A DNA stretch of 64,000 bases from Halopseudomonas oceani (GTDB taxonomy: Bacteria; Pseudomonadota; Gammaproteobacteria; Pseudomonadales; Pseudomonadaceae), in NCBI RefSeq assembly GCF_002903165.1, contig NZ_PPSK01000005.1:124001-188000 (forward strand), in the 5' to 3' direction. Below, piece by piece: positions 6,259 through 18,970 of the stretch. Within the stretch, counting starts at the first letter, position 1, and each line of letters starts with the position of its first letter. Under the pieces are notes generated by a model. That model did no database searches and was not told the origin of the DNA. It saw only the letters and a list, made by a program, of their open reading frames with translations. The position numbers were made by a program, and so were the translations under genes.

Positions 6259-9150
6259 TCAAGCCAGCGGCTGGCTATCCTGCTCCGAGATCAGCCCCCA
6301 TTCACGCAACTGGGCAAGACACTCACTGACATCGACGTCATCACGCTGGAAACCGGACAGGAACAACTGTCCGTACTGTTCGTGCACACCGGTGCGCAGA
6401 AAGAGCGCCAGCAGTGTTGGGTCAATATGCCGATCCTTAGCCATGAACAGCATGATCTTGACCGCTTCAGACAGGGTCTTGGCTGACTTGTAAGGGCGAT
6501 CGGCCGCCGTCAGCGCTTCAAAGATATCAGCGATTGCCAGCACCCGATCCTGCACTGACAGCTGATCTTCGCCAAGCCGACGCGGATAACCGGTCCCATC
6601 AAGCTTCTCATGATGCGTCGCGGCCAATTGCGGCACATTGCGCAGCGCACGCGGGAACGGCAAGGTGCTGAGCATGATCAGCGTCTGCACAATATGATCA
6701 TTGATCTTGAACCGCTCCTCAGCTGTGAGGGTTCCACGCTGGATGGACAGGTTGTGCAGCTCACCCAGGTCGAAACTGTATTCCGGCGGTTCCATATCGA
6801 ACCCCCACTCATTGCGCGGATCATCACTGGCAACCGGCGGCTTGCGATCCCCCCAGGGCACCTTGTGCTCCGGCTTGTCGCTGAGCAGTTGCTCAACCAC
6901 CGGCAGCGGCAATTCGGGTACCGCTTCGAGCTGCCGCATTTCCTGCTGCGACAGGCCAAGCCGATCATCGAAGTGCCGCGTCCAGGTCTGCCGAGCGATC
7001 TGCTGCAACTGCGCAATATCCTCATCACGCATGAACTCGCCACCAACGTTAGCCTTGGCCACCTCGGCAAACTCGGCTTGCAGACGCGCATGGGTCTGGG
7101 CCAGCTCAGCGGCCAGTGCCGCTTCATCCTGCCCGTCTGCTCGCCCCTGCCAATAGCGTATCTCGGCGTCACGCCAGAGCACTTCAAAGCGCGTGCGAAT
7201 CTCGTGAATACGGTTGTAGATGGTTTCCAGCTTGGTCGCTTTGTCAACGACGTATTCCGGGCTGGTGATCTTGCCGCAATCGTGCATCCACGCGGCGATT
7301 CTGAAGGCATAGCGTTCATCCTCGTCCATGGAAAAGTCCGCCAGCGAGCCGTTTTCTGCACTCAACGCCCGATTGAGCAGCATCTCAGCCAACTGTGGCA
7401 CACGATCACAGTGGCCGCCGGTATAGGGTGACTTGGCGTCAATCGCCGTTGCCAGCAGGCGAATGATTGACTCCATCAAGCGCCGCTGGTCATCGAACAG
7501 CTGCCGCGTCTCGATAGCAACCGCTAGCGTGCCGGACAGGCTGTCGAGGAATTGCCGCAAACTCCGGAGGGCCTTGCCCGATAGCAACGGCGACACTTCC
7601 ACTGCCAGCACACCGATTAGGCTTTCCCGCCGATCACGCAATGCCAACGTCAGATAACGGTGATCGCGATCAAGCCGCGTCGCCAGCACCCGCTCCGGCT
7701 TGCTGCGCAATTCCTCGTCGAGAAGAATCGACTGAGGGTAATGGTCAGCGTTAATACCGCTGGCGAGTACCAGCTCAGCGCTCTTTTCTTCGTACAGAAA
7801 CACGGCGCCGCCGCGCCCCTTGGCCATTTCGATAAGATGGCCAAGCACCTCATCCAGCATTCGCTCAAGCCGAGCTTCACGACTGAGCGCCAGTGAAATT
7901 TGCTGAAAGTGATGAATGGCACTCGCCATTCGCCCTAGCACCTGGCCCAGTTCACTCACTTCACGAATACGCGAGCGCACGCCGATCTTCTGGCTGAAAT
8001 CCATGTCGGCCAGATAGCCAACCTGGTCAGCCAGCGATTTGAGTGGCCCTCCTAGTCGCTGCCCTAGTGCCCAACCAATCAGCACCAGCAGCAACATGAG
8101 CACCAGTGCCCAGACCGCCTGGTGCTTGAGAATATTGACTACGCCGGACAGCAGCTCCCTGCCGGGCATGGCGATCAACACACGCCCCAGATCCTCACCA
8201 ATCCGGCTCAACGGCAAACTGATGACGTACCAGTCACCATCCTCTCTCGGCAGGCGCCTGACCTCCGAGGAACCAATGCGCATCGCTGCCAACTCGCTCA
8301 ACACCGGCACGTTCAGTTCATCAATGGTCGCCAGTCTGGGAGACTCCGCCCCCTCCAGCACGATCAAGCGATCAACATCAGGGTAGGCAACAACGCGATT
8401 GCCACTGACGATTGCCATCTCGGTGCCTGGCGTAAGGTGCATGTCCTTGACCTCGACGGCCAAGTCATCGACTGCCGCGTCCAAGCCAAGCACGGTAGCG
8501 GTCAGTTGGCTGCGCAGCGCCATGGTCAGGCCAACCTGGTGGGTAGTGAAGTACAGATAGGGCTCAGTCAGCACAACCTCTGCAGACTGCTGCGCCATCT
8601 GATACCAAGGACGAGTACGGGGGTCGTAGCGATACTCCGGAACGGGCCGACTTCCCATCTGGTGCAGTTCCTTGTCAAAGAACAGCCAGCGGCCACGGAG
8701 CCCTTCACCGTCGCGCTCAATGGACTGCGCCAGAAAATGGGTACCTTCAGGCAAGTTGTAGCCATCAATCCCGCCCTCCGGCACCCTGCGCACCAGAAAG
8801 AAATCGCCGTCCGGATAGCCCGCATAAACAGCACTGACCGCAGTGCCATCACGCAGCAGTTGAACCAACGCCGGCAGCCGGTCAACCCGGTCAGAGAGGG
8901 TTCGCGCGCTGACCAGCGGATCGTGAACCAACAGACGCAAGGCGTTCTCGCTCGGGGTGAGCAGACGATCCGCACGCTCATCCAACAAAGCACCGAACTG
9001 CCTGGCGGAGTCAGCCGCCGCCGCAACCAGTACCGCTCGCGCGCCGCGATAGCCCTGGAAGGCAGTCACTGCCAGCATTGTCAGCAGACAGATAACAATG
9101 GACACGGCAATGAGCCCCTGCAGCGTAATCCACGGACGCACTCTTTTCAT
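6259..9150 (-). CDS. Membrane Cache-HAMP-GAF-HD-GYP protein (putative cyclic-di-GMP phosphodiesterase)
   Basis: About 963 residues from the start at 9150 (MKRVRPWITL, AGGA upstream). A membrane helix at about 10-32 is followed by a large periplasmic double-Cache-like region (RTRPWYQMA is typical of dCache), then a second helix (VWALVLMLLLVLIGW), HAMP, a GAF-like region, and an HD-GYP domain. The HD-GYP landmarks are MHDCGK (His at about residue 623) and HHEKLDGTGYP (about residue 846). In ordinary HD-GYP domains these two blocks lie about 60 residues apart; here the gap is about 220, so roughly 160 residues are inserted. Family knowledge predicts hydrolysis of c-di-GMP. The ligand sensed is unknown. 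Confidence 0.88.
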   Translation of the reverse strand: MKRVRPWITLQGLIAVSIVICLLTMLAVTAFQGYRGARAVLVAAAADSARQFGALLDERADRLLTPSENALRLLVHDPLVSARTLSDRVDRLPALVQLLRDGTAVSAVYAGYPDGDFFLVRRVPEGGIDGYNLPEGTHFLAQSIERDGEGLRGRWLFFDKELHQMGSRPVPEYRYDPRTRPWYQMAQQSAEVVLTEPYLYFTTHQVGLTMALRSQLTATVLGLDAAVDDLAVEVKDMHLTPGTEMAIVSGNRVVAYPDVDRLIVLEGAESPRLATIDELNVPVLSELAAMRIGSSEVRRLPREDGDWYVISLPLSRIGEDLGRVLIAMPGRELLSGVVNILKHQAVWALVLMLLLVLIGWALGQRLGGPLKSLADQVGYLADMDFSQKIGVRSRIREVSELGQVLGRMASAIHHFQQISLALSREARLERMLDEVLGHLIEMAKGRGGAVFLYEEKSAELVLASGINADHYPQSILLDEELRSKPERVLATRLDRDHRYLTLALRDRRESLIGVLAVEVSPLLSGKALRSLRQFLDSLSGTLAVAIETRQLFDDQRRLMESIIRLLATAIDAKSPYTGGHCDRVPQLAEMLLNRALSAENGSLADFSMDEDERYAFRIAAWMHDCGKITSPEYVVDKATKLETIYNRIHEIRTRFEVLWRDAEIRYWQGRADGQDEAALAAELAQTHARLQAEFAEVAKANVGGEFMRDEDIAQLQQIARQTWTRHFDDRLGLSQQEMRQLEAVPELPLPVVEQLLSDKPEHKVPWGDRKPPVASDDPRNEWGFDMEPPEYSFDLGELHNLSIQRGTLTAEERFKINDHIVQTLIMLSTLPFPRALRNVPQLAATHHEKLDGTGYPRRLGEDQLSVQDRVLAIADIFEALTAADRPYKSAKTLSEAVKIMLFMAKDRHIDPTLLALFLRTGVHEQYGQLFLSGFQRDDVDVSECLAQLREWGLISEQDSQPLA

Positions 9151-9376
9151 TGCCTGATCCTGTTCCCTGTCTGGATAGCGCCAGCTTCCACAACATGATG
9201 AGCATAGCTCAGCGACGGAGGATCGCATCATGTTCGCAACCAGCTCAGAGCCACTCTCCGCGAATCATGCACCAAACGGATATTCGCCACTTCGGCTGAT
9301 GAATGCGCATGCGACAATCGCGCCATTACGGCACCGATTTGCCATAGTGTCGGCTTCTGATTCTTTGGAGAGCAGC

Positions 9377-10345
9377 ATGCAGCAGACACAACAACAGCTG
9401 ATCAAGGTCAACGGCATCAGGCTCAGCGTGCATATTGCCGGTCCCGAAAGCGGCACGCCGGTCTGGCTGCTACACGGTTTCCCCGAGTGCTGGTATTCCT
9501 GGCGCCACCAGATTGCTGCACTGGCGGCACAGGGTTACCGCGTGTTTGCACCGGAAATGCGCGGTTATGGCGCAACCGAAGCACCGGAAGCGGTCGAGGC
9601 CTACGACCTGATCACCCTGTGCGCCGATATCCAGGGCGCAATGAACCATTTTGGCCATCAGCAGGTGGCCATGATCGGGCATGACTGGGGCGCACCGGTC
9701 GCCTGGCACCTGGCTCTGCTGGAACCGGCACGTATCAAGGCCGTCTGCGGCATGTCGGTACCCTTCGGCGGGCGACCGCGCCAGCCGGCCATCAACATGA
9801 TGCGCGAGGCCTACAAGGACCGCTTCCACTATATCCTCTACTTCCAGAAACCGGGGCTGGCAGAGGCCGAGCTGGCGGCCGACATTCCGCGCACCATGCG
9901 CCTGATGATGCACGGCCTGGATAGCCAGGAAGGCGGCGCACTGGTGCAGGACAAGCCAGCGGACGCGGCCTGGCTGGACGACTACACCGATCCCGGCAAG
10001 CCGCCTGCGTGGTGTTCGGATGAGGCCTTCGACGTCTATGTTAAAACCTTCGAGCAAAGCGGCTTCCGTGGCCCGGTAAACTGGTATCGCAATTTCGAGC
10101 GCAACTGGGAGCGCACCGAAGCGCTGGCCGGCCGTCAAATCGAGCAGCCCGCACTGTTCCTGATCGGCGACCGCGATCCAGTCGGTACACTTGAAGCCTA
10201 TACCATCAAGAAAATGCCGGCCGTGGTGCCGCAGGTCGAGCAGCACGTGATTGCCGATTGCGGACACTGGATCCAGGCAGAGAAGCCAGCGCAGGTAAAC
10301 AGCTTGCTGCTGCCGTTCCTGGAACGCCATTTCCCGGCAAGCTGA
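9377..10345 (+). CDS. Soluble epoxide hydrolase (alpha/beta-hydrolase fold)
   Basis: A 322-residue enzyme. The start at 9377 (MQQTQQQLIKVNGIRL) has GGAG six bases upstream; the frame is open further up but no family homology is seen there. The oxyanion-hole motif is HGFPE (residues 33-37), the nucleophile is Asp103 in GHDWGAPVAW, and the catalytic His is in DCGHWIQAEKP. An Asp nucleophile with HGFP marks epoxide hydrolases (or fluoroacetate dehalogenases) rather than esterases, and the cap region carries Tyr residues that could polarise the epoxide. It should hydrate an epoxide to a vicinal diol. It is the first gene of a three-gene operon: the next gene starts 14 bases after its stop and looks like a halohydrin dehalogenase, which would supply the epoxide. 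Confidence 0.9.
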   Translation: MQQTQQQLIKVNGIRLSVHIAGPESGTPVWLLHGFPECWYSWRHQIAALAAQGYRVFAPEMRGYGATEAPEAVEAYDLITLCADIQGAMNHFGHQQVAMIGHDWGAPVAWHLALLEPARIKAVCGMSVPFGGRPRQPAINMMREAYKDRFHYILYFQKPGLAEAELAADIPRTMRLMMHGLDSQEGGALVQDKPADAAWLDDYTDPGKPPAWCSDEAFDVYVKTFEQSGFRGPVNWYRNFERNWERTEALAGRQIEQPALFLIGDRDPVGTLEAYTIKKMPAVVPQVEQHVIADCGHWIQAEKPAQVNSLLLPFLERHFPAS

Positions 10346-10359
10346 CAGGGAGAAGAACA

Positions 10360-11040
10360 ATGAGTCTGTGCGACCTGAGCAACAAGCGCATCCTGCTGAC
10401 CCAGGCAGGCGACTTCATGGGCCCGGCGCTGCAGCGCACGCTGGAGGCCTGCGGTGCCAACGTGATCGCCGACAAGCGCGACTTTCTGGACCCGAAAGCA
10501 CCACAGAAGCTGATTGCTGAAGCGGGCGAGGTTGACGTACTACTGCTCAATCTCGGGGTACCTGCGCCGAGCACACCTGCCGATCAGGTGGCAGACGAGG
10601 AATGGGGCCTGCTATTTCGCCACATGGTCGATCCGCTGCCCCGCTTCGCGCGGGCCGTTCTGCCCTCCATGATCAACCGTGGCAGCGGCAAGATACTGCT
10701 GATGGGTAGTGCCTCTGCCCTGCGCGGCATGAAGCGGGCCTCCAGCTACAGCGCCGCGCGCGGAGCGCAGCTGGCCTGGGTACAAGCGGTCGGCGCAGAA
10801 GTCGCTGCCAAGGGCATCCAGGTCAATGCCATCGCTCAGAACTTTGTCGACAACCCAACCTACTTCCCGCCCGAGATTCAGGCCAACCCGGCGTTTCAGG
10901 CCCGACTGCAACGTGAAGTGCCGCTCGGACGCCTGGTCTCGGCAGACGAAGATACCCACTTCGCCGCCTACCTGTGCTCGGACGCCGCCAACTGTTTTGT
11001 CGGCCAGGTGTTCCCGGTCTGCGGCGGCTGGAGCCATTAA
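10360..11040 (+). CDS. Halohydrin dehalogenase (SDR-related haloalcohol dehalogenase)
   Basis: A 226-residue SDR-fold protein; ATG 10360 has AGGGAG about 7 bases upstream. It lacks the Gly-rich cofactor motif of dehydrogenases. At that place it has T14-QAGD-F19-M-G21, matching the T-X4-F/Y-X-G halide-pocket motif of halohydrin dehalogenases. The catalytic triad is Ser117, Tyr130 and Arg134 (S-X12-Y-X3-R) instead of the Ser-Tyr-Lys of SDR oxidoreductases. The C-terminal NFVDNPTYFPPE segment and a GQVF-V-GGW end also recall the HheA/B/C proteins. Expected reaction: reversible conversion of a vicinal haloalcohol to an epoxide with release of halide. The preceding epoxide hydrolase would pull the reaction forward. 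Physiological substrate unknown. Confidence 0.85.
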   Translation: MSLCDLSNKRILLTQAGDFMGPALQRTLEACGANVIADKRDFLDPKAPQKLIAEAGEVDVLLLNLGVPAPSTPADQVADEEWGLLFRHMVDPLPRFARAVLPSMINRGSGKILLMGSASALRGMKRASSYSAARGAQLAWVQAVGAEVAAKGIQVNAIAQNFVDNPTYFPPEIQANPAFQARLQREVPLGRLVSADEDTHFAAYLCSDAANCFVGQVFPVCGGWSH

Positions 11041-11051
11041 GGAAAATGTTC

Positions 11052-11768
11052 ATGCAAAGCACCATCCCGACCATCATTCGCAAGCGCTTCTGCGGGCCGC
11101 CAAATAGCGGCAACGGCGGCTACGTCTGCGGCCTGTTGGCCAACGCCATGGCCGAGCCCTGCCAGGTCACCCTGCACGCACCACCGCCGCTGGATACCGA
11201 ACTGCAGATTGTGCGCGACAGCGACGGTGCTCGCCTGCTGCAGGGCGATACCCTGCTCGGCAGCGCCAAACCCTACCAGCTGGAGCTGACGCCACCTGCT
11301 GCGATCAGCCTGGCCGACGCCGAAGCGGCGCGGCCACGGTTCAGCGGCTATAACGACCACGGCCTGCCGGGCTGTTTTGTCTGCGGCACCAACCGCTGCG
11401 AACACGACGGTCTGCTATTGCACACCGGCCCGGTCAGCGGCCGCACCAGCACTGTTGCCTGCCCCTGGACACCCGACAGCACACTGGATGCGGGCGACGG
11501 CAGCGTGGCACCAGAGTACCTCTGGGCGGCCCTGGACTGCCCTGGGTACTTTGCGGTCAGGGAACAGGCAGGCGTCGCCCTGCTAGGCCGCTTCGCGGCG
11601 CATATCGAGCGGCCAATCAAGGTGGGAGAGCAATTGGTAGTAGCCGGCTGGGCCATCGCCCACGACGGGCGCAAGCACCACGCCGGCACGGCCCTCTACG
11701 ACGCCGCCGGCCAACCGGTGGGCTGGGCCGAAGCGACCTGGATCAGCTTGCAGAAGCAGGCCGCCTGA
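11052..11768 (+). CDS. Uncharacterised protein, possibly hotdog-fold, third gene of the epoxide/haloalcohol operon
   Basis: About 238 residues. GGA at 11041-11043 sits eight bases before ATG 11052 (MQSTIPTIIRKRF); an ATG at 11046 is also possible but too close to the site. The N-terminal GPPNSGNGGYVCGLLA stretch recalls the start of acyl-CoA thioesterase-like hotdog domains, and GCFVCGTNR, with two Cys, is followed by a second half ending GWAEATWISL. I would guess a double hotdog-fold protein, possibly acting on a CoA or other thioester, but I see no catalytic residue I can name. It starts 11 bases after the halohydrin dehalogenase gene, so the three genes form one transcript and this product probably belongs to the same pathway. 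Confidence 0.65.
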   Translation: MQSTIPTIIRKRFCGPPNSGNGGYVCGLLANAMAEPCQVTLHAPPPLDTELQIVRDSDGARLLQGDTLLGSAKPYQLELTPPAAISLADAEAARPRFSGYNDHGLPGCFVCGTNRCEHDGLLLHTGPVSGRTSTVACPWTPDSTLDAGDGSVAPEYLWAALDCPGYFAVREQAGVALLGRFAAHIERPIKVGEQLVVAGWAIAHDGRKHHAGTALYDAAGQPVGWAEATWISLQKQAA

Positions 11769-11772
11769 CCTC

Positions 11773-13692
11773 TTACTCAGCGCTCAGGTAAGACGAACGC
11801 GTCAGGCCGAGTCGCAGCGCGTCCACAAAGCGCGTGCGCTCGGCCGGACTCAGGCGGGCGCCGGAGACCTTGTCGCGATACAGTGTCACCAGTTCGTCCG
11901 GCGCAAAGTGCACGTAGCGAAGCATGTCTTCGATGGTGTCGTGGGTTTCGATACCACCGTGCACTACCTTGCCATCCGGGCGCAGGTAGACGTTGACCGA
12001 GTCGGTGTCGCCGAACAGGTTGTGCATGTCGCCGAGAATTTCCTGATAGGCGCCGACCAGAAAGATACCCAGCAGATAATCCTCACCCTCGCGTAGCTCG
12101 TGTACCGGCAGACTGTTTTCAATACTCTGCTCATCGACATAATGGCGGATCTTGCCATCGGAGTCGCAGGTCAGATCCTGCAACACCGCCCTGCGCAATG
12201 GTTCTTCCTCCAGTCGATCCAGCGGCATAATCGGCAGTACCTGATCAATCGCCCAGGTATCCGGCAGGCTCTGGAATACCGAAAAGTTGCAGATGTACTT
12301 GTCGGCCATCTTGTCGTTCAGCTCGTCCAGCACCTGACGGTGTGAACGCTGGCGCGCCTTGAGCAGGGTATGCAGACGGTTACACAGTGCGTAGTAGCAC
12401 TGCTCGGCCAGCGCTTTCTCCGACAGCGTCAGCTTGCCTTCAGCATACTGCGCCGCTACATCCGCCATATAGTGGGTGGCCCGCCAGTAGGTCTCGGTCA
12501 CCATCTCGACATCGTGCTGATCCTGCAGCCTGACCAGGTTGCGTACCACCAGCGGCAACGCCTCCAGGTCGTCAATCTGCGGCATGACATCGTTGTAGCG
12601 CTCAACATCAGTCACCTGGACGATCAGCACCGCATGGTGCGCGGTCATCGCCCGACCGCTTTCGGAAAAGATATGCGGGTGCGGCAAGCCCTGCTCGTCG
12701 CAGAAGTCGCGTAGCATGCCGACTACGGTCTGGGCATACTCGTTGACGTCATAGTTGATCGAGCTGGCGTTGCGCGAGTGGGTACCGTCGTAGTCGACCC
12801 CCAGCCCGCCACCAACGTCGATATGATCGACCGGCAGGCCCAGCGCGCGCAGCTCACCGAAGTAGCGAATCGCTTCACGGAAGCCATGCTGATAGTCCGC
12901 CAGATTGGCGATCTGAGACCCCATGTGGAAGTGCAGCAGGCGCACCCCGTCCTGCAGATTTGCAGCACGAAAGGCATCCACTACGCGCAGCAACTGCGCC
13001 GCCGACAACCCAAACTTGGACTTCTCCCCTCCGGTGTCGGCCCACTTGCTGGACGCCAGCGAAGACAAGCGTACGCGCAAACCGATATTGGGCGTCACTC
13101 CGAGCTTTTCTGCCTCTTCGATGACCAGCCGAACCTCGGACTCCTTTTCGATAACGATGAACACCTTGTGACCCAGCTTCTGGCCGATCAGCGCCAGGTG
13201 GATGAACTCGCGATCCTTGTAGCCATTACAAACGATGGTGCCGCCTTTGGGTGCCAGCGCCAGCACCGCCATCAACTCCGGCTTGGAGCCCGCCTCAAGC
13301 CCGATGGAGACATTCTCGGTGGCGATCACATTCTCAACCACGGCCTCTTGCTGGTTAACCTTGATCGGATAGAGCGCGGTATAACCGCTGCCATAATCCA
13401 GCGCCTCAATGCTGCGATCAAAGGCACCGGTCAATTGCCGCACCCGCGCCTGCAGAATGTCCGGAAAACGTACCAGCAGCGGCAAGTCCAAGCCGCTTTC
13501 TCGCAGCTGGCCAACCAGTTCATGCAGGTCGATGCTGCCGCCCTCGGCCCCGCGTGGCATGACGTCCACATGCCCCTGTTCATTGACGTTGAAATAGCCG
13601 GCACCCCAGTGCCGAATGCCGTAAACGCTGCGGCTGTCAGCCACGGTCCAGGCAGATGCGTCTTCTTTGCGCGAACGTCGAACAGGTCCCAT
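11773..13692 (-). CDS. speA: Biosynthetic arginine decarboxylase
   Basis: About 639 residues from the start at 13692 ([17 protein letters not shown] upstream), close to the roughly 636-residue Pseudomonas SpeA; a start at 13743 lacks a site. [20 protein letters not shown] opens the protein, the PLP Lys is about residue 111 in LYPIKVNQQ, and the late [17 protein letters not shown] segment completes the alanine-racemase-like fold. It decarboxylates L-arginine to agmatine, feeding putrescine and spermidine through the AguA/AguB route. It is divergent from rhlG and convergent with the preceding operon, with only four bases between the two stop codons. Confidence 0.96.
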
Positions 13693-13925
13693 CACTACCT
13701 CACTTTGCTCAAATACAGGCTCGCCATTGTGAACGTCATACATGACAACAGTTCCGCTGGCTGATGTGCCAAAGGATAAGCCAAAAGCCAGATAATCACA
13801 GCGAAGGTCATCGTCGACCCATGAGCCAGTATTTGCGCTCTGGATAAACCTAGGGCCTGAAGCGAGCGCTGGTTTACCGTAAGGACCGGGCTATTACCCC
13901 ATCCGATTACATCAAGGAGACACCC
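13693..13925. other. Divergent intergenic region speA / rhlG
   Basis: This 233-base region must hold the promoters of speA (minus) and rhlG (plus). The only clear element is AAGGAG at 13914-13919, six bases before the rhlG ATG. I looked for a -24/-12 RpoN site and an AlgU-type site ahead of rhlG, both known for P. aeruginosa rhlG, and see no convincing match. Confidence 0.5.
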
Positions 13926-14696
13926 ATGCAGCACTACTTCAGCCTTGCCGGCCGCACCGCGCTGGTCACTGGCGGCAGCCGCGGCATCGGCCGCATGATC
14001 GCCCAGGGCTACCTAGAAGCCGGCGCCCGCGTCATCATCTGCTGCCGCAAGATCGCCGAGGGCATGCAAACCGCCGAGGAACTGAGCCAGTACGGCGACT
14101 GCACCGCCCTGGCCGCTGACCTCTCTACCGAGCAAGGCGCGCGCCAACTGGCGGAAGATGTGCGCGGCATTACCGAGCGTCTGGACATTCTGGTCAACAA
14201 CGCAGGCACCAGCTGGGGCGCCCCGCTGGAGGAGTTCCCGGTATCCGGCTGGGAAAAGGTCATGCAACTGAACGTGATCTCGGTATTCAGCTGTATCCAG
14301 CAACTGCTGCCGCTGCTGCGCAGTTCCGCCAGCGCAGAGAATCCGGCTCGCATCATCAACATCGGTTCAGTTGCAGGCATCAGCTCGTTCGGTGAGCAGG
14401 CCTACTCCTACGGCCCGAGCAAGGCGGCGGTGCATCAACTGTCGCGCAACCTTGCCCGCGAACTGGTTAGCGAACATATCAACGTCAACGTCATCGCTCC
14501 CGGCCGCTTCCCAAGCAAGATGACCAGCCACATCCATAACGACCCACAGGCAATGGCAGAAGACTGCCAGCACATTCCGATGAAGCGCTGGGGCCGTGAA
14601 GAGGAAATGTCCGCACTGGCAATCATGCTGGCGGGCACAGGCGGTGCCTACATGACCGGCAACATCATTCCCATCGACGGCGGTTTCACCCTGTAA
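13926..14696 (+). CDS. rhlG: RhlG-type NADPH-dependent beta-ketoacyl reductase
   Basis: A 256-residue classical SDR. It has the cofactor motif GGSRGIG (residues 16-22), NNAG at 91-94, and the catalytic Ser148, Tyr162, Lys166 (YGPSK). Long stretches match P. aeruginosa RhlG as I remember it: the MxxYFSLAGR opening, YPVSGWEKVMQLNV-like and SCIQQLLPLLR segments, INVNVIAPGRFPS, and the YMTGNVIPIDGGF-like end. RhlG reduces beta-ketoacyl substrates and has been linked to rhamnolipid and polyhydroxyalkanoate precursors, although its exact in vivo role is debated. The start is set by AAGGAG six bases upstream. A perfect hairpin follows the stop. It lies 49 kb from rhlA in this window. Confidence 0.93.
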   Translation: MQHYFSLAGRTALVTGGSRGIGRMIAQGYLEAGARVIICCRKIAEGMQTAEELSQYGDCTALAADLSTEQGARQLAEDVRGITERLDILVNNAGTSWGAPLEEFPVSGWEKVMQLNVISVFSCIQQLLPLLRSSASAENPARIINIGSVAGISSFGEQAYSYGPSKAAVHQLSRNLARELVSEHINVNVIAPGRFPSKMTSHIHNDPQAMAEDCQHIPMKRWGREEEMSALAIMLAGTGGAYMTGNIIPIDGGFTL

Positions 14697-14996: not shown

Positions 14997-16819
<1,823 letters not shown>

Positions 16820-17222: not shown

Positions 17223-17539
17223 GTCATGCCTACGCCGCCGCGTGACCTGAACGCTCTCCAGACAGGAGACAACCGCGCTCAGGGTCACGCCGGCCGGAGT
17301 CACCCTGAAACAGGTCTCGACTCCGGCAGCGGCTCACAAAGACAGTGACCGCGTCCCACACGCCGCGCGTCAAATGCAACAAATAGATTCACTCAGACAT
17401 CTATTCCGACGGCAGCTTGATGTGGATAATCTGCCGGCTACGCCCAAAAGGGCAATTAACGGCCGGCGTTCGCGGCGGAGCATGAGGCTCCGACCTGCCA
17501 ATGGCAGGACAGCATTCACCAACGACAGAAACCAGGACC
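17223..17539 (+). other. Structured 317-base gap between ectC and ask_ect
   Basis: No credible gene is present. Several inverted repeats are. (1) GCGTGACCTGA (17240-17250) pairs with TCAGGGTCACGC (17279-17290), one bulge. (2) A perfect 9-bp repeat GCCGGAGTC (17293-17301) / GACTCCGGC (17319-17327). (3) TCAGGGT (17279-17285) can also pair with ACCCTGA (17302-17308), which would compete with both (1) and (2). (4) CGGAGC / GCTCCG with a 5-base loop (about 17475-17491). (5) CCTGCCA / TGGCAGG at about 17493-17508. None is followed by a T run. The alternative pairings resemble an attenuator or a processing leader. In related bacteria this position is often occupied by ectD. Confidence 0.55.
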
Positions 17540-18970
17540 ATGCATACAGTAGAGAAGATCGGCGGCACTTCAATGAGCCGCTTCGAGGAAGTACTGCAGA
17601 ACATTTTCATTGGCCAACGTCAGGGTGCTGAGCTGTACCAGCGCATTTTTGTGGTCTCTGCCTATTCAGGCATGACCAACATGCTGCTCGAACACAAGAA
17701 AACCGGCGAGCCCGGTGTGTACGAGCGCTTCGCCGACGCCCACAACGAAGACGCCTGGCTGGAAGCCCTGGACAACGTCCAGCAGGCCATGACCGCCAAG
17801 AACGCTGAACTGTTCGAGGGCGAATACGAGCTGCAAGCCGCCAACCGCTTCATTGAAGGCCGCATCAGCGACGTTCGTGACTGCATGGTTAGCCTGCAGC
17901 AACTGTGCTCCTATGGCCACTTCCAGCTGACCGAACACCTGATGAAAGTCCGCGAAATGTTGGCTTCACTGGGCGAGGCTCACAGCGCCTTCAATACCGT
18001 ACTGGCGCTGAAGAAAAAGGGCATAAACGCTCGACTGGCCGACCTGACCGGCTGGAACCAACGCGAGCCGAAAACCTTTCAGGAAATGGTTCGCGACAGC
18101 TTTGACGGTATCGACTTGAACAACGAACTGGTTGTTGCGACTGGTTATACCCATTGCAGCGAAGGCCTGATGAGCACCTTCGACCGCGGCTACAGCGAGA
18201 TCACATTCGCCCAGATCGCGGCAACCACAGGCGCCAGTGAAGCCATCATTCACAAGGAATACCATCTATCCAGTGCCGATCCGACATTGGTCGGAGTGGA
18301 TAAAGTGGTTACCATCGGGCGTACCAACTATGACGTGGCCGACCAGCTCTCCAACCTCGGCATGGAAGCGATTCATCCCAAGGCCGCGCGTACCTTGCGC
18401 CGCGCAGGCATCCACCTGCGCATCAAGAATGCCTTCGAGCCGGATCACGGTGGCACACTGATTAGCCAGGACTACTGCAGTGAGAAGCCCTGCGTCGAGA
18501 TCATCGCCGGCCGTAAAGACGTATTTGGCATCGAAGTCTTCGACCAAGAGATGCTGGGCGACGTTGAATACGATCTGGAGATCACCAAGCTGCTGAGAAA
18601 GCTCAAGCTGTACGTGGTGAACAAGGACTCAGATGCCAACAGCATTACCTATTACGTCTCGGCGTCACGCAAGATGATCAACCGCGCCTCGCGCCTAATC
18701 GAAGAGCGCTACCCGATGGCCGAGGTCAACGTGCATAACGTCGCTATCGTTTCAGCGATCGGCTCGGACCTCAAGGTCAAAGGTATTCTGGCCAAGACTG
18801 TGGCTGCCCTGGCCGAAGCAGGCATTAGCATCCAGGCAGTGCACCAGTCGATACGCCAGGTAGAGATGCAATGCGTGGTTCAGGAAGAGGACTATGACGC
18901 CGCGATTGCTGCGCTACACCGCGCACTGATCGAGCCGGAGAATCACGGCGATGTGATCGTCGCCGCCTGA
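17540..18970 (+). CDS. ask_ect: Ectoine-associated aspartate kinase
   Basis: A 476-residue aspartokinase. It phosphorylates L-aspartate, the entry to the aspartate-semialdehyde pool used by EctB. The start at 17540 (MHTVEKIGGTSMSRF) matches the KIGGTSM nucleotide-binding opening typical of the ectoine-linked isoform; a longer frame from 17501 adds 13 residues of no family character. Features include FVVSAYSGMTNMLLEHK, the roughly 80-residue insertion (about 65-150) peculiar to Ask_Ect, and two C-terminal ACT domains (VAIVSAIGSDLKVKGILAK). This isoform is known to be insensitive to normal lysine/threonine feedback in P. stutzeri. A strong terminator follows, closing the operon. Confidence 0.95.
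   Translation: MHTVEKIGGTSMSRFEEVLQNIFIGQRQGAELYQRIFVVSAYSGMTNMLLEHKKTGEPGVYERFADAHNEDAWLEALDNVQQAMTAKNAELFEGEYELQAANRFIEGRISDVRDCMVSLQQLCSYGHFQLTEHLMKVREMLASLGEAHSAFNTVLALKKKGINARLADLTGWNQREPKTFQEMVRDSFDGIDLNNELVVATGYTHCSEGLMSTFDRGYSEITFAQIAATTGASEAIIHKEYHLSSADPTLVGVDKVVTIGRTNYDVADQLSNLGMEAIHPKAARTLRRAGIHLRIKNAFEPDHGGTLISQDYCSEKPCVEIIAGRKDVFGIEVFDQEMLGDVEYDLEITKLLRKLKLYVVNKDSDANSITYYVSASRKMINRASRLIEERYPMAEVNVHNVAIVSAIGSDLKVKGILAKTVAALAEAGISIQAVHQSIRQVEMQCVVQEEDYDAAIAALHRALIEPENHGDVIVAA

Follow-up and report, generated by a model that had tools for sequence, protein, structure and literature searches.

Three adjacent genes in a 64,000-nucleotide (nt) stretch of the Halopseudomonas oceani contig NZ_PPSK01000005.1 (the whole stretch is called the window here) encode an epoxide hydrolase (EH), a D-type halohydrin dehalogenase (HHDH), HheD, and a protein of predicted double-hotdog fold. 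They probably form a Halopseudomonas operon in which HheD was added once, directly downstream of a resident EH, with the double-hotdog gene behind it in many species, and in which haloalcohols would be converted through epoxides to diols. A sequence-only reading of this DNA had placed three genes at 9377-11768, and an open reading frame (ORF) check of the window confirmed them as intact ORFs on the + strand, separated by 14 nt (genes 1 and 2) and 11 nt (genes 2 and 3); the HHDH and EH genes, described there as fused, are adjacent but separate.

9377..10345, + strand: EH gene (gene 1), alpha/beta-hydrolase fold, EphA/soluble epoxide hydrolase (sEH) type, 322 amino acids (aa)
9683..9685, + strand: codon of the presumed nucleophile Asp103 of EH (GHDWG), a role assigned by analogy with the sEH family
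10360..11040, + strand: D-type HHDH gene (gene 2), HheD, 226 aa
10399..10422, + strand: HHDH motif 1, T14-QAGD-F19-M-G21, halide/nucleophile pocket
10708..10761, + strand: HHDH motif 2, S117-X12-Y130-X3-R134, catalytic triad
11052..11768, + strand: double-hotdog protein gene (gene 3), TesB-like predicted fold, 238 aa; an ATG at 11046, 6 nt earlier, is an equally possible start

By sequence, gene 2 encodes an HHDH of subtype D. The protein shares 65% identity with HheD2 (7b73), 63% with 8xxb, 42% with HheB and 28-30% with HheA and HheC (HheC over 174 aa), and 21% with the second short-chain dehydrogenase/reductase (SDR) of the window, at 13926-14696; its best solved relatives are 7b73 (310 bits), 8xxb (296) and HheB (155). 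Structure 7b73 is described as the halohydrin dehalogenase HheD2 (PMC9629495), and the 65% identity to it lies within the 57-95% range shared by verified D enzymes (PMC4989007). Both HHDH motifs stand at the residues that the sequence-only reading had named: motif 1 follows the published definition T-X4-F/Y-X-G, which replaces the SDR cofactor motif (PMC4989007, PMC11976700), the Rossmann pattern is absent, and S117, Y130 and R134 fit S-X12-Y-X3-R. Neither motif occurs in any of 16 SDR sequences, while among the best 80 of 325 HheD relatives motif 1 is present in 79 and motif 2 in 80. In a 44-row tree with many long branches, built without HheE, HheF and HheG, the 28 HHDH rows (HheA/B/C/D) part from the 16 SDR rows (15 of the 35 SDR places listed in this genome, plus the window's second SDR) with support of 100/98, as the sequence-only reading of gene 2 as an HHDH had anticipated. 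The D+B part of the tree is supported at 99/98, and HheB is placed among the D rows, with 8xxb at 82/90, so that the tree does not set subtype D apart as a clade of its own. It is the presence of both published motifs, the lack of a cofactor motif and the separation of HheA/B/C/D from the SDRs that together make the HHDH assignment strong. The sole motif 1 failure among the 80 relatives is that of Plasticicumulans acidivorans (L033, 8001-8657), which has Leu in place of Thr (L-X4-F-X-G) and an intact motif 2.

Homology and residue content identify the product of gene 1 as a complete epoxide hydrolase with the alpha/beta fold, of EphA/sEH type, in agreement with the Asp-nucleophile enzyme read from the sequence beforehand. 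It scores 287 bits to the EphA structure 5cw2 and 234 bits to human sEH, and alignments with both show H33GFP (HGXP), D103, Y155, Y237, D267 and H297 in place; we take D103 to be the nucleophile, Y155 and Y237 the lid tyrosines, and D267 and H297 the relay.

A haloalcohol to epoxide to diol route is the best reading of the pair, and a plausible one. Ser117, Tyr130 and Arg134 of HheD would catalyse ring closure of a vicinal haloalcohol to the epoxide, no nucleotide cofactor being needed, and the released halide would be held in a pocket lined by Thr14, Phe19 and Gly21. This reaction would be reversible; EH would then hydrolyse the epoxide to a diol through an ester intermediate on Asp103, a step that would both pull the equilibrium and remove a toxic epoxide. 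The identities of the genes, their motifs, the phylogeny and the conserved gene order are observed; the two activities, how they couple and the joint transcription of the genes are inferred. A purine-rich, ribosome-binding-like stretch, judged by eye, precedes each of the three starts. It is on spacing and conservation that co-transcription of the trio would rest, because a simple scan of 9150-11900 gave no sigma-70-like promoter, and its single terminator-like site, which is fewer than shuffled sequences give, falls within gene 3.

Conservation of the arrangement was followed across 37 Halopseudomonas genomes, in which EH is core (36 genomes), HheD is patchy (22) and the hotdog gene is found in 24. 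HheD adjoins EH in 17 of the 22 HheD-bearing genomes, the ends of the two matches being no more than about 85 nt apart. In 12 of the 22 (G000, G293, G294, G300-G303, G305, G309, G310, G324, G326) the hotdog gene comes next, not more than 150 bp behind HheD; it lies about 1 kb beyond HheD in G298, and in L009 a GGDEF gene stands between the two. In H. aestusnigri (L001), HheD is 94% identical to that of the window and the gene order is conserved. A 47-row HheD tree places 11 EH-linked rows and G307 in one clade (99/97), and a second clade (100/100), from four genomes, occupies another locus away from EH, which points to two acquisitions of HheD in Halopseudomonas, one of them beside EH. Because the EH-linked sequences form one clade, HheD was probably added once beside EH. 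The locus itself is marked by two conserved flanking genes outside the operon:

6259..9231, - strand: HD-domain (HD_5) protein gene, divergent flank
11773..13743, - strand: speA, biosynthetic arginine decarboxylase, convergent flank

The EH region was retrieved from 12 genomes that lack HheD: 11 of them have speA and/or the HD-domain gene in that stretch (L123 has neither), and other genes stand behind EH, which argues that HheD joined an EH that was already resident. The second HheD lineage (L130, L131, L132 and L147, corresponding to G311, G323, G319 and G318) comes from genomes that all carry a double-hotdog gene elsewhere; nitronate monooxygenase-like and LigT-like genes lie upstream of HheD in L130, and the first gene of L131 is similar by eye.

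Beyond the genus, HheD neighbourhoods were surveyed in the best 80 of 325 HheD-encoding stretches of a genome contig database. A strong EH of the window type lies just upstream of HheD in 10 of the 80 (L001-L007, L009-L011), and a hotdog gene lies within 2 kb downstream in six (L001-L005, L009), all of the Halopseudomonas type. Weak alpha/beta-hydrolase matches, of at most 68 bits, occur in L016, L018, L045, L053 and L057, and an EHN-type EH query against the ORFs of the 80 loci gave one weak match (L018, 23 bits). A general HheD-EH linkage is rejected by these counts, as is the idea of one operon partner common to HheD loci in general: the genes that run in the same direction beside HheD are of many kinds (GNAT 8, DnaT 6, HMGL-like 3, HbpS-like 2 and Abhydrolase_1 2 among 56 scanned of 70 listed, the 14 omitted being mostly apparent wrong-frame calls of a crude gene finder). 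Individual neighbourhoods contain an alpha/beta-hydrolase gene 7 nt behind HheD in a Steroidobacteraceae metagenome-assembled genome (L018:8679-9497; 39 bits to the window EH), possibly another hydrolase partner; HMG-CoA lyase-like genes co-directionally after HheD in L041, L064 and L078; and, immediately before HheD in one locus each, an FlK-family (fluoroacetyl-CoA thioesterase-like) gene (L014:175-561) and a 4HBT_2 thioesterase-like gene (L043:7539-7982). Three loci from Desulfatitalea (L017, L029, and L079 with less than 1 kb upstream) carry HheD without a linked EH of the window type, and an oxygen-derived epoxide or haloalcohol would be difficult to reconcile as a substrate with Desulfatitalea, which are, we assume, sulfate reducers. 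Among 72,556 plasmids, a single HheD match was obtained at E 1e-30 (42% identity), on pSA2 of Novosphingobium resinovorum SA1 (L156:4793-6666). Its HHDH-type protein is nearest to HheB (246 bits), has Ser for Thr in motif 1 (S-X4-Y-X-G) and an intact motif 2, and its gene lies 11 nt behind that of an EHN-family epoxide hydrolase, which matches the window EH only locally (25% over 134 aa). This independent pairing of an HHDH-type gene with an EH of a different kind favours a functional connection between the two activities. The two-step route proposed by the sequence-only reading has thus gained support at the level of gene pairing, within the genus and on pSA2, while the route itself stays at the level of plausibility.

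The hotdog assignment that the sequence-only reading had offered for gene 3 as a guess agrees with both profile and predicted-fold comparisons, in which the protein matches hotdog proteins over its whole length. An AlphaFold2 model built from seven sequences (pLDDT 76.7, pTM 0.76) has two beta-alpha-beta4 halves, and the product is accordingly predicted to be a double hotdog of TesB-like fold. Pfam 4HBT_3 gave no match to the window's protein at E up to 1, the curated cut-off not being reached; two of 22 relatives do match it (best E 0.00023). Residue D162, invariant in all 22 family sequences, lies inside helix 154-168 of the model and is a candidate for the catalytic acid that TesB-type thioesterases have in the helix of the second hotdog. 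As a weak inference, the probable role of gene 3 is thioester hydrolysis, the substrate being a coenzyme A (CoA)- or carrier-bound acid before or after the haloalcohol route.

Whether gene 3 is a partner of HheD was approached through co-occurrence, with p values uncorrected for relatedness. In 293 Pseudomonadales genomes, HheD and the hotdog family, each present in 21, share 10 genomes where 1.5 are expected (p 7.6e-8), and by genus 6 of 9 where 0.9 are expected (p 1.9e-5); the HheD rows were taken at E 1e-50, and five kept at 40-50% identity (G039, G081, G179, G200, G255) may not be subtype D. EH accompanies HheD in 9 of 21 genomes (3.0 expected, p 9e-4), and the hotdog family accompanies EH in 4 of 21 (3.0 expected, p 0.35). 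The sharing between HheD and the hotdog family is mostly unlinked, and in 19 hotdog loci from other genomes of the order neither HheD nor a clear EH lies within 1.5 kb (L095 has a 39-bit alpha/beta-hydrolase match). Within Halopseudomonas, after removal of the 13 genomes with linked pairs, the hotdog gene is present in 7 of 9 genomes with HheD versus 4 of 15 without (p 0.02). Across 130 genomes of the phylum, the window's own genome was the only one with HheD, and three had the hotdog family; the family also appears in Streptomyces and Nonomuraea records. A loose functional tie between gene 3 and HheD is possible, and a role as an HHDH-specific partner is rejected, the family being mostly found away from HHDHs. 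The suggestion that gene 3 might be a new partner is accordingly borne out only in part.

Other members of the hotdog family include two neighbouring copies in one phylum genome (L151 and L153; G751:C1:1164748-1166316) and an unannotated C-terminal part (query residues 86-233) of a relative on the Pseudomonas sp. plasmid NZ_CP083747.1 (L154:5001-5447), where an IS21-like element precedes it and genes for a chlorite dismutase-family protein and a class 1 integron integrase lie further along.

A more ambitious extension, which must be considered doubtful, is that the hotdog enzyme performs a true third step, so that in marine Pseudomonadales HheD, EH and the hotdog family would together process halohydrins and epoxides that are bound to CoA or a carrier and derive from lipids or alkenes. 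If true, this would give D-type halohydrin dehalogenases a natural role.

Several observations weigh against a dedicated haloalcohol operon. The other 70 of the 80 surveyed loci lack a strong window-type EH beside HheD (six of them have less than 1 kb upstream), which implies that in general HheD does its work with no EH of this family linked to it. Even within the genus, HheD is not beside EH in five of 22 genomes (G307, G311, G318, G319, G323), G318 having no EH match at all, and EH, being core with or without HheD, must have another job; it is also present in 7 of 12 other Pseudomonadaceae genomes sampled. A search of the H. oceani genome for a type II haloacid dehalogenase gave six matches, none over the cut-off. 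The gene 3 family is widespread without HheD and usually solitary, and a class sample of 369 genomes (HheD in 5, the hotdog family in 7), a comparison of low power, shares both only in the window's genome and in none of the four others with HheD.

An alternative that is unlikely but deserves consideration is that HheD has the HHDH fold and a natural job other than dehalogenation, such as epoxide opening or closing with nitrite, cyanate or thiocyanate, or another cofactor-free reaction, with EH serving general epoxide clean-up. HHDHs do accept azide, nitrite, cyanide, cyanate and thiocyanate (PMC11976700), and other physiological functions have been stated not to be excludable (PMC4989007). Such a role would suit the many HheD loci without a linked window-type EH, those of Desulfatitalea included, as well as the nitronate monooxygenase-like gene near the second-lineage HheD in L130. 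However, the halide-binding and catalytic motif residues are unchanged in HheD, and the EH-HheD pair is conserved in Halopseudomonas, both of which speak against this alternative.

Still less probable is a purely historical adjacency, in which the gap between EH and speA is prone to insertions, HheD happened to enter it, and neither EH nor the hotdog gene is functionally tied to HheD. The gap is indeed permissive: in relatives it holds other genes behind EH (a 217-aa Vut_1-like transporter with a protein of about 550 aa, a chemoreceptor-like gene, GGDEF genes), EH is core while HheD is patchy, and in G307 EH and HheD lie about 2 kb apart. Against this, the adjacency in the 17 genomes is kept at HheD identities down to 68% and with short gaps, a different EH family is paired with a different HHDH on pSA2, and the two genes share Pseudomonadales genomes above the expectation given earlier. 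The least tenable option, refuted at the sequence level by the HHDH motifs (S-Y-R rather than S-Y-K, with no Rossmann pattern), the identity to HheD2 and the HHDH side of the 100/98 branch, is that gene 2 encodes an ordinary NAD(P)-dependent SDR reductase, as its Pfam adh_short_C2 and adh_short matches (only from about residues 49 and 27 onward, respectively) and the ranking of FabG structures (80 bits) above HheG (5o30, 74), HheA (4z9f, 71) and HheC (4ixt, 58) might suggest; BLAST with HHDHs commonly ranks SDR reductases above distant HHDHs (PMC4989007).

Downstream of speA, the window also carries ectoine genes ectA/ectB (14997-16819), followed by an aspartate kinase gene (17501-18970). The ectoine genes fit the saline habitat at which the sequence-only reading had guessed.

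For the natural substrates of these enzymes, a question underlined by the view that the compounds tested are probably not those of HheC (PMC11976700), the conserved EH-HheD(-hotdog) set, patchy in a cultivable marine genus, supplies naturally occurring pairs with and without it, as well as a candidate for a third enzyme. Both the enzyme and this type of operon are already known, since PMC6922532 lists HHDHs of the genus and PMC11976700 reports an HheC-EH operon. The listing, which dates from 2018, names P. aestusnigri, P. pachastrellae, P. sabulinigri and further species as HHDH-bearing, credits HheD12 of P. pelagia CL-AP6 to Schallmey et al. 2014, and suggests an important role of HHDHs in marine settings (PMC6922532). 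According to a 2016 review, no more than two of the known HHDH genes shared an operon with an epoxide hydrolase (PMC4989007); one of the two may come from Halopseudomonas itself. Searches of the open-licence PMC literature yielded no article on how EH and HHDH are arranged in Halopseudomonas or on the hotdog gene there; what the present analysis adds is the conservation across the genus, the order in which the set was assembled and the double-hotdog gene.

Compared with known systems, the window EH shares the catalytic residues of the EphA/sEH family and shows no notable difference from it, and gene 3 is likened by predicted fold to the TesB-type double-hotdog acyl-CoA thioesterases (3cjy, 4r9z, 1c8u). 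HheD is the same kind of enzyme as HheD2, with both HHDH motifs and a place in the same clade. Its closest described counterparts are the HHDH of P. aestusnigri (L001; the 94% identical sequence above), already listed in PMC6922532, and HheD12 of P. pelagia CL-AP6 (L010), 71% identical and likewise behind EH. The HheC operon of Agrobacterium radiobacter AD1 combines HHDH and EH genes with a predicted joint action against haloalcohols (PMC11976700); HheC belongs to a remote subtype (30% over 174 aa), and a hotdog gene does not figure in the passages that describe the AD1 operon. Plasmid pSA2 resembles the window in having an EH gene followed directly by an HHDH-type gene, and differs from it in its EHN-domain EH, its HheB-nearest HHDH (annotated only as an SDR family oxidoreductase), the absence of an annotated double-hotdog gene from the stretch, and a larger, catabolic-looking cluster with enolase-superfamily, acyl-CoA dehydrogenase, aldehyde dehydrogenase and enoyl-CoA hydratase genes.

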